A DNA stretch of 34,154 bases from Patescibacteria group bacterium UBA4664. GTDB lineage: Bacteria > Patescibacteriota > Saccharimonadia > CAILAD01 > BJGX01. The stretch covers positions 1-34,154 of the forward strand of contig CALRDO010000002.1 in assembly GCA_943354915.1 (NCBI GenBank), given 5' to 3'. Made by a program: the position numbers and the translations under genes. Position 1 is the first letter of the stretch; each line of letters starts with the position of its first letter. The notes below the pieces were generated by a model. It did not search any database, had not been told where the DNA came from, and was given only the letters and a program-made list of their open reading frames with translations. This document shows, one piece after another, positions 28,721-30,773 of this stretch.

Positions 28721-29234
28721 TTATAGCCTCCCCTGCGGTAGAGCTACTCTGGATATTGGCTGTAGCTGTTTTATCTGAACCCTCGTCTGTTATTAACGGG
28801 TTAGCGTCATTTTCAGCATCAGCGATATTAAGATTGTGTAGATTTTCAATCGAGCCATTGGCGGCAACGCTAGATGTATTGAGGGTGTCTGGCGGTGTGC
28901 CATTGAGCATCGAGAAACCAACCCCGCCGACAGCCGCCAGCATCACAAAAACTGCCAAATAGCTACAGGCTACTCTTAGCTGGTGGGTCTTCAAGAGCCT
29001 ACCTAGCATGCTCGGCTTAACTTCTTGCGGGCTACACACGAGCTCCAAAGCTTGTCTTAAAGATGCTTTACCCAAACTATCTCTAGAGCGAAGGTTTTTT
29101 AGAGATTTATTAATTTCTAATGCATGGACCAGATCTCGCTTTTGAGATGCACTTAATGCCTTAGAGTATTTTGGTGAAACTCTTGAGAGATTATGGTCTA
29201 AATGATATTGAAGTATTTTATTATAATTATTCAT
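28707..29234 (-). CDS. Putative anti-sigma factor (single TM)
   Basis: Overlaps the 3' end of the ECF sigma gene by 8 bp; soluble N-domain, one TM (VACSYLAVFVMLAAVGGVGFSML), extracytoplasmic tail. No classical HxxxCxxC ZAS motif; call rests on position and topology. Confidence 0.5.
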   Translation of the reverse strand: MNNYNKILQYHLDHNLSRVSPKYSKALSASQKRDLVHALEINKSLKNLRSRDSLGKASLRQALELVCSPQEVKPSMLGRLLKTHQLRVACSYLAVFVMLAAVGGVGFSMLNGTPPDTLNTSSVAANGSIENLHNLNIADAENDANPLITDEGSDKTATANIQSSSTAGEAINEDF

Positions 29235-29799
29235 CTATTTTACCTACCTTAATTTCATATTGTAGTTTTTGAATACCTCTTGAGTAAAGCTTTCTAGTGG
29301 CTACTTCTGACTTCCCAATGATTTTAGAAATTTCAGGGTTTGACAAACCATCGATTAATCTTAATACAATAACCTCTCGATAATTATCTGGCAAGCGGTT
29401 AATTCCCCGAGATATCTCAGCCACCGCTTGCTTGCTCTGTACTATCTCATCGGGTTTTTTGCCGTTATCTACCAATAGCGGAATGATATCTTCTGAATTG
29501 CTAACTGGCCTATTTTTATTAGATCGCCAATAATCTGATACGACGCTTCTAGCAACCGTAAAAATATAAGCCATGGGCGAATAGCCTTGATCCTTCCAGC
29601 TTGCAAGGTTGGAATAAAAACGGATAAACACTTGTTGGGCAAGATCCTCGGCATCATCTACCGTTGGCACACGAAAAGCAATGTACCTTAAAATTGGCTC
29701 ATAACATTCGTGGTAGAGTTGTTCGAAAGCTGCTTCATCGCCAGCCTGGGCCTTTACTACAAGTGATAGTAAATGTTGGCTCTGATCATATCCGTGCAT
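29227..29799 (-). CDS. RNA polymerase sigma factor, sigma-70 ECF subfamily
   Basis: FEQLYHECYEPILRYIAFRV, DAEDLAQQVFIRFYSNLASW, RLPDNYREVIVLRLIDGLSNPEISKIIGKSEVATRKLYSRGIQKLQ. Confidence 0.95.
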   Translation of the reverse strand: MHGYDQSQHLLSLVVKAQAGDEAAFEQLYHECYEPILRYIAFRVPTVDDAEDLAQQVFIRFYSNLASWKDQGYSPMAYIFTVARSVVSDYWRSNKNRPVSNSEDIIPLLVDNGKKPDEIVQSKQAVAEISRGINRLPDNYREVIVLRLIDGLSNPEISKIIGKSEVATRKLYSRGIQKLQYEIKVGKIDE

Positions 29800-29893
29800 A
29801 GTAACGCTTTCTCGCCGTATTTTGTGACATCTGGTGATTATACTATAATTCTAGTAGTTTTTTAAGTTCATATCAGCTACTCAACAGATATGG

Positions 29894-29899
29894 TATAAT
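29894..29899 (+). promoter_or_regulatory. Putative extended -10 promoter (TGGTATAAT) upstream of the tandem repeats
   Basis: TG at 29891-29892 and TATAAT at 29894-29899; followed by hairpin TGTACT-TTATTGC-AGTACA. No convincing -35. Confidence 0.45.
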
Positions 29900-29951
29900 T
29901 TAGGGGCTGTACTTTATTGCAGTACAATCGGATTAAGTCTTACTTTTGTAC

Positions 29952-30370
29952 GATTTGTTAAGCCAAGGCTGTTTGACAAATCCAGAGGAAAAATACGATA
30001 CTAGCTGTATGTAATTTGTACTTAAACAAATTACGAAAGCTAAAATCGTAATTTGACGCTTGTATTGCGACTGGTGCTGTTTTGTAGGATTTGTTAAACC
30101 AAGCCGAGTTTTTTGGCCTTTGAAGGCTGTTTGACAAATCCAGAGGAAAAATGCGATACCAGCTGAAGCAATTTGTACTTAAACAAATTACGGAAGCTAA
30201 AATCGTAATTTGACCCTCATATTGCGTTCGGTGCTGTTTTGTAGGATTTGTTAAACCAAGCCGAGTTTTTTTGGTCCCAAGGCTGTTTGACAAATCCAGA
30301 GGAAAAATGCGATACCAGCTGAAGCAATTTGTACTTAAACAAATTACGGAAGCTAAAATCGTATTTAGAC
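29952..30370. repeat. Three tandem copies of a ~157-bp structured repeat upstream of tRNA-Trp
   Basis: Cores at 29965-30050, 30123-30207 and 30279-30363; cores 2 and 3 identical over 85 bp, core 1 diverged at several positions with 1-nt length difference. Inverted repeats GGATTTGTTAAAC...GTTTGACAAATCC and AATTTGT-ACTTAA-ACAAATT. Confidence 0.95.
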
Positions 30371-30372
30371 GA

Positions 30373-30449
30373 AGGGGTGTAGCTCAGTTGGCTAGAGCGT
30401 CGGTCTCCAAAACCGAAGGCCGCGGGTTCAATTCCTGCCACCCCTGCCA
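30373..30449 (+). tRNA. trnW: tRNA-Trp (anticodon CCA), 3' CCA encoded
   Basis: AGGGGTG acceptor / CACCCCT, D arm GCTC..GAGC, anticodon arm TCGGT-CTCCAAA-ACCGA, T arm GCGGG-TTCAATT-CCTGC, GCCA end. Confidence 0.96.
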
Positions 30450-30523
30450 TCTTTCGCTAAAGCTTCGGACTGGTAAACCATCCTGCCAATCTACGCTGAA
30501 GATTCGGACTGGCAAGACGGTAT
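30446..30523. repeat. Imperfect ~39-bp tandem duplication immediately after tRNA-Trp
   Basis: TGCCATCTTTCGCTAAAGCTTCGGACTGGTAAACCATCC followed by TGCCAATCTACGCTGAAGATTCGGACTGGCAAGACGGTA. Confidence 0.7.
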
Positions 30524-30773
30524 GAAGCATTTGCGAAATACGGTAAACCAAACCAAAGAAGTAATAATGTAATAAGCATACATAACTATATAACATCATT
30601 AAGCTTTTTGGGAATCTACTACAAGCTAATTATTAGCCACCATCCTCCGCGCAAGCCGAACTAAGCTGGTTTTTGCTTCGACTAAGCTTGGGAGCAGACT
30701 GGACTTGATTGTTTAAACAGCTTGCGCTTTATACGATATTAAACAAAAGCATTTTCAGTTATAATAGATAAAG

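Follow-up and report, generated by a model that had tools for sequence, protein, structure and literature searches.

The closest described systems are short palindromic repeats that carry a conserved tag beside a hairpin. The CGTC-tagged REPs, among them the neisserial dRS3 and the rickettsial RPE-4 and RPE-6 (Di Nocera et al. 2013, PMC3733652), measure 20-40 bp and have stems of 8-9 bp that almost always start with AT pairs, loops of 4-5 nt, and mostly a CCA tail. They are dispersed in several phyla, including Bacteroidetes, are often paired, and have no dedicated transposase (PMC3733652). The GTAG REPs and REPINs, which we group with single-strand transposition of the IS200/IS605 type, are also short tagged hairpins; they are non-autonomous and are thought to move as folded single-stranded DNA with the help of an enzyme acting in trans (PMC3733652).

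Here, we report a family of two-hairpin elements that is apparently undescribed, since we found no description of it in the open-licence literature. Their fixed end lies exactly at the ends of tRNA and tmRNA genes, suggesting a small element, mobile or involved in processing, that recognises these gene ends. In our best reading, to which we give an even chance of being right, they are small non-autonomous palindromic repeats, REP-like but distinct from the CGTC-tagged REPs, whose GACG(A) end joins the ends of tRNA and tmRNA genes.

The tandem array upstream of tRNA-Trp

The window, i.e., the whole stretch of 34,154 nucleotides that was analysed, belongs to a genome of 0.54 Mb in 37 contigs (G000). 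The first-pass annotation had described a repeat of ~157 bp in three direct copies upstream of tRNA-Trp. The repeat is present, with start-to-start distances of 158 and 156, and copies 2 and 3 share 98% identity over 92 nt. Its end had been placed 10 bp before the tRNA, which is not the case: unit 3 ends with GACGA and the tRNA starts at the next nucleotide. The features of the locus are as follows.

29891..29899, plus strand: TGGTATAAT, an extended -10-like site and presumed promoter of the array and the tRNA, from the sequence
29943..30059, plus strand: unit 1 (model R2 E-value 2.3e-12, fold z -6.4), with the loop of hairpin 1 mostly deleted
30079..30214, plus strand: unit 2 (model R2 E-value 8.8e-14, the unit being near-identical to unit 3; fold z -3.5)
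30236..30372, plus strand: unit 3 (model R2 E-value 1.3e-18, the unit being itself in the R2 alignment; fold z -4.6), flush with the tRNA at 0 nt
30244..30297, plus strand: hairpin 1 of unit 3, GGATTTGTTAAAC[CA]AGCC..GGCTGTTTGACAAATCC, from the fold and from covariation across 24 sequences
30298..30303, plus strand: AGAGGA linker of unit 3, from the sequence; nearly all units read keep AGAGGA, a set in part of which the search pattern dictates it
30304..30367, plus strand: hairpin 2 of unit 3, with internal loops, from the fold; its outer five pairs covary
30368..30372, plus strand: GACGA, the fixed end abutting the tRNA, from the sequence and from placement in other genomes
30373..30449, plus strand: tRNA-Trp(cca), from ARAGORN and Rfam RF00005 (72 bits)

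The two dyads initially proposed for each unit do fold as claimed when compared with shuffled sequences (z values above), and the fold of the entire leader with the tRNA has a z of -7.7. Hairpin 1 is longer than the dyad first drawn, as it runs on beyond the CA bulge to AGCC/GGCT, and the second dyad is the end part of a longer hairpin (TACGAT..ATCGTA). The -10-like site, already noted in the first-pass annotation, is also found upstream of the array in the sister genomes G001 and G002, and a scan of positions 29780-30620 revealed no terminator-like site. Together with the strong covariation described below, this supports the earlier proposal of a structured, probably co-transcribed leader as far as the window is concerned, and the array probably is such a leader of pre-tRNA-Trp. 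The contig of G001 starts within the apparent Trp array, which makes array length in metagenome assembled genomes (MAGs) uncertain.

Several other features were observed around the array. A gene encoding an ECF-type sigma factor lies on the minus strand (29227-29799), divergent from the array; the arrangement is the same in G001 and the flank is similar in G002. Just 3' of tRNA-Trp, at 30443-30515, there are two copies of a separate 34-nt repeat (CCTGCCATCTTTCGCTAAAGCTTCGGACTGG..), which has more copies in G002. A peptide reading of AGAGGAAAAATG.. was rejected, as the ATG is missing in copy 1 and in G002. The tRNA-Trp of the window has no close match in G003, G007, and G008, of which G008 is 99% complete; the anticodons of the tRNAs listed there were read in part, and the gene may possibly be diverged or unassembled in these genomes.

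Structure, distribution, and placement of the units

All these units follow the same order, with hairpin 1 (often containing AAACCAAGNC..GNCTGTTT), AGAGGA, hairpin 2, and GACGA, in about 115-140 nt. We aligned on anchors 24 diverse units from Saccharibacteria, other Patescibacteria, Bacteroidales, and Oscillospiraceae. Covariation was 0.598, against 0.148 in shuffled data, and paired cells amounted to 92.5%, against 29-43% when the alignment was slid. Most rows were chosen by a pattern in which AAACCAAG, CTGTTT, and AGAGGA are fixed, and rows were cut at GACGA; hence, conservation cannot be claimed from the letters of these four motifs. The search pattern does not include the covarying flanking pairs or the stem beside GACGA. 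These results show that the two-hairpin structure is under selection. At tRNA-Ser(tga), the structure of the unit is kept in sister species through compensatory changes. G-T mispairs exceed A-C mispairs in the stems of the unit strand (27 versus 4), which identifies this strand as the one that folds, also where it is antisense to the tRNA. The statement that the unit matches no known RNA family was borne out: an Rfam search of the window matches the tRNA only, and at the gathering threshold the loci of 18 relatives yield only tRNA, tmRNA, and RNase P RNA.

A covariance-model search of related genomes, as suggested in the first-pass annotation, uncovered further units. The first model, built from five units of the window and of G002, has matches in 9 of 13 related genomes at E<=1, and the units read there end at tRNA-His, Pro, Lys, Met, and Trp. 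We then searched 85,462 species genomes for the pattern AAACCAAGNC-gap-GNCTGTTT-gap-AGAGGA. This resulted in 34 stretches, where about one was expected by a rough estimate, in Saccharibacteria, other Patescibacteria, Bacteroidales/Paludibacteraceae, and Oscillospiraceae. In most of them a second hairpin with GACGA comes next, and the majority of those lead into a tRNA, or in one case into a tmRNA. Three pattern matches (L125, L130, L147) look like chance occurrences, their genomes having no model match. With the 24-sequence model, units were found sporadically in Patescibacteria (18 of 240 genomes at E<=1e-6), and the occurrence of the element is patchy over three phyla.

How precisely do the units abut tRNA genes? 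The 24-sequence model contains no tRNA sequence, and the cleanest test of placement uses its 20 matches at E<=1e-6 in other families of the phylum, in genomes outside model building. There, 14 matches end 0-2 nt 5' of a same-strand tRNA or tmRNA (one tmRNA included), 4 lie at the 3' end of a tRNA on the opposite strand, with the unit strand antisense, and 2 do neither. In other words, the 18 abutting units are sense in 14 cases and antisense in 4. The chance of abutting a tRNA is about 2.5e-4 per match. The gap between the fixed end and the tRNA is mostly 0 and at most about 4 nt. In the opposite-strand cases the usual order is unit..GACG directly followed by TGG.., i.e., the fixed end touches the CCA terminus of a tRNA that is encoded on the other strand.

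Two larger sets were also classified. In seven genomes with known tRNA coordinates, the 24-sequence model has 61 matches. Of these, 32 end at the 5' side of a same-strand tRNA (22 with a gap of exactly 0 nt), 19 belong to tandems as their upstream members, and 2 touch the 3' end of an opposite-strand tRNA; the 8 others include four at contig ends and two before a partial tRNA-Leu copy. A further 61 matches, from the genomes reached by the pattern and from relatives and with a few shared with the previous set, comprise 35 flush on the same strand, 4 flush on the opposite strand, and 22 that are neither. The link to tRNA-Trp suggested by the window is thus not specific, since units are also found at His, Pro, Lys, Met, Ser, Gln, Gly, Ala, Arg, Leu, and other tRNAs, and at tmRNA.

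Some loci have particular arrangements. At L096 (G008:C8, about 150349-150728), two outward-pointing units lie between two minus-strand tRNA genes, each abutting one, which resembles a head-to-head REP dimer. Elsewhere, a unit is directly followed by a partial tRNA copy of ~20-24 nt from the 5' part, of tRNA-Ser (L121:6141-6251 and L249:439-565) or tRNA-Leu (L317:302-428 and, on the minus strand, L314 335-454), or by a longer degenerate copy of tRNA-Gln (L354:466-675). In these five loci the intact tRNA lies about 100-200 nt beyond the copy, and in several genomes with a copy of ~20-24 nt this distance is about 110-130 nt. A similar partial tRNA-Trp copy occurs in G010 (L022) without a recognised unit.

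The number of units at a given tRNA varies between sister genomes. tRNA-His has two or three tandem units in G000-G002 and one in G003, while at tRNA-Lys(ctt) there are two or three units in both G001 and G002, but G003 lacks them. The upstream tandem copies are cut-and-joined mosaics. No target-site duplication was found. The leader of tRNA-Ala(ggc) in G000 and G001 (L311, L321) has a different short direct repeat (AACAGAAGTGTCTCTCGACAA twice), which is absent in G003.

Many copies in Bacteroidales and in the Oscillospiraceae genome G024 have no adjoining tRNA. G024 has the most matches in one genome (29). It also has a MITE-like repeat of ~400 bp with terminal inverted repeats GAATAATTTCGTTTG..CAAACGAAAATATTC and a unit inside (L216-L226), and another type of unit that has shortened copies of its 3' end repeated after it. 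About half of the non-tRNA copies of Bacteroidales lie directly before CAAAGRTA or a close variant (L236, L277, L280, L282, L283, L286, L135, L129), a motif that, when its complementary strand is read, resembles the -7 promoter box of Bacteroidetes. There was no clear rule in gene orientation around the non-tRNA copies, no plasmid similarity for an Oscillospiraceae copy, and no phage similarity for a Bacteroidales copy.

Mobile repeat or pre-tRNA leader

The reading of these data as a REP-like repeat could work as follows. The array would consist of three tandem copies of an element made of hairpin 1, AGAGGA, hairpin 2, and GACGA, whose fixed GACG(A) end would be joined to tRNA or tmRNA ends, usually at the 5' side and sometimes at the 3' side on the other strand. 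Copies would be, or would have been, mobilised by a trans-acting enzyme whose substrate is the folded strand, in the form of ssDNA or RNA, and which recognises the tRNA end in its folded state. If a cloverleaf can form on either DNA strand, or in the RNA and in its copy, the two ends of the tRNA gene would be equivalent. In the window and at other 5' ends, transcription from the upstream promoter would include the copies in a structured leader of the pre-tRNA, which RNase P would remove, so that the insertion would do little harm. Flush placement, the many tRNA species and tmRNA concerned, the variation in copy number, the patchy occurrence in three phyla, the 29 matches in a single genome, the covariation, and the folding of the unit strand even where it is antisense all favour a mobile element. 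The MITE-like repeat and the shortened 3'-end repeats of G024, the non-tRNA copies of Bacteroidales, and the partial tRNA copies beside units are further signs of mobility or copying. Sister genomes differ in copy number and presence, but no clean pair of occupied and empty sites was found among them, and mobility is therefore something that we infer. The element may just as well have a function as a leader and spread in addition. More tentatively, and with the chances somewhat against it, it might represent a new class of bacterial mobile elements, which move in a folded single-stranded form, ssDNA or RNA, read the ends of tRNA and tmRNA by their shape and not their sequence, and insert flush at either end. 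As for the enzyme, no Y1 transposase (Y1_Tnp) was found in the incomplete MAGs of the window's genus, nor in 9 of the 13 carriers searched, and reverse transcriptases (RVT_1) are lacking in this genus and in most carriers searched. Mobilisers of the IS200/IS605 and reverse-transcriptase types were rejected, as their domains are absent from most of these carriers.

The main rival, which we find rather unlikely, is an RNA leader acting in cis in pre-tRNAs and pre-tmRNA, whose hairpins would dock beside the acceptor stem and tune the transcription of the adjacent tRNA, its 5' processing, or its stability, the tandem copies raising the effect. Its best argument is that most copies share the strand of the tRNA and directly adjoin its 5' end, an excess (14:4, 35:4, 32:2) that symmetric insertion leaves unexplained and that would fit selection for a leader. 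The presence of the -10-like site upstream of the array in three genomes agrees with it, as do the compensatory changes that keep the structure at the same tRNA in sister species, which at tRNA-Ser(tga) suggest a use to the host. Yet, the opposite-strand copies at the 3' ends of tRNAs carry the motif on the strand antisense to the tRNA, which a simple leader cannot explain; it is in these cases that the leader proposed in the first-pass annotation fails. Many copies in Bacteroidales and G024 have no tRNA to lead, and in the window's genus units occur at no more than 4-7 of the roughly 30 tRNA genes in each genome, with differences between sister genomes. The first-pass annotation had opposed its leader to an ordinary dispersed repeat: the repeat is indeed dispersed, but its placement is not ordinary.

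The remaining alternatives appear much less probable. The fixed 3' boundary, the near-invariant unpaired letters, and the patchy occurrence irrespective of neighbours could fit a self-cleaving ribozyme that cuts after GACG(A) and releases the tRNA 5' end, but we consider it very unlikely because there is no match to Rfam ribozymes, some units stop 3-4 nt short of the tRNA, and most tRNAs of the same genomes lack a unit and must be processed by a general enzyme (RNase P RNA was found in one carrier, L128). It would be even more surprising if the unit were a scaffold RNA whose 3' flank, here the tRNA, guides an RNA-guided nuclease as in the omegaRNAs of TnpB. The unit would indeed be a structured RNA with tRNA sequence, sense or antisense, directly after its fixed 3' end, but no nuclease is linked to the loci examined, no shared motif precedes the flanks (by eye), and many tandem units are not followed by tRNA sequence. 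Least credible of all are the tandem promoter/operator units put forward as an alternative in the first-pass annotation. A scan did find one sigma-70-like site within unit 1 (29973-30002), but related and distant units lose the TTGTAC..TAAAAT letters while keeping the pairing on one strand, AGAGGA, and GACGA, and the conserved -10-like site is upstream of the array.

The nucleotide-exact placement of these repeats at tRNA ends, in several phyla and on either strand, implies that some enzyme or process reads the ends of tRNAs; we found none described for short bacterial repeats in the open-licence literature. In Patescibacteria, the element would account for the variable, repeat-filled leaders of tRNAs and perhaps also for contig breaks at tRNA genes. 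It provides a testable case for deciding whether REP-like repeats act as mobile DNA, as RNA leaders, or as both.

Comparison with known systems

The integron attC site was rejected by eye, as the order of GTTRRRY/RYYYAAC does not fit. Like the cis-regulatory leaders in Rfam, such as riboswitches and T-boxes, the element has a covarying structure with near-invariant unpaired nucleotides. In contrast to them, it matches no family, its downstream genes are tRNA and tmRNA, and some copies are antisense to these. The GTAG REPs and REPINs have a GTAG tag and a RAYT gene, whereas the tag here is CGTC/GACG and the incomplete MAGs of the window's genus have no Y1_Tnp. The likeness to CGTC-tagged REPs lies in the dispersal over several phyla, in the frequent pairing, and in the unpaired GACG (CGTC on the other strand) that directly follows hairpin 2 in nearly all units. 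However, the outer pairs of hairpin 2 are variable and mostly GC, internal loops interrupt this hairpin, and AGAGGA (TCCTCT on the REP strand) takes the place of the CCA tail. The element also has two hairpins in about 115-140 nt and is flush with tRNA ends, a placement absent from PMC3733652. Because the start of its stem and its tail differ from those of the CGTC-tagged REPs, we call it REP-like rather than a REP.
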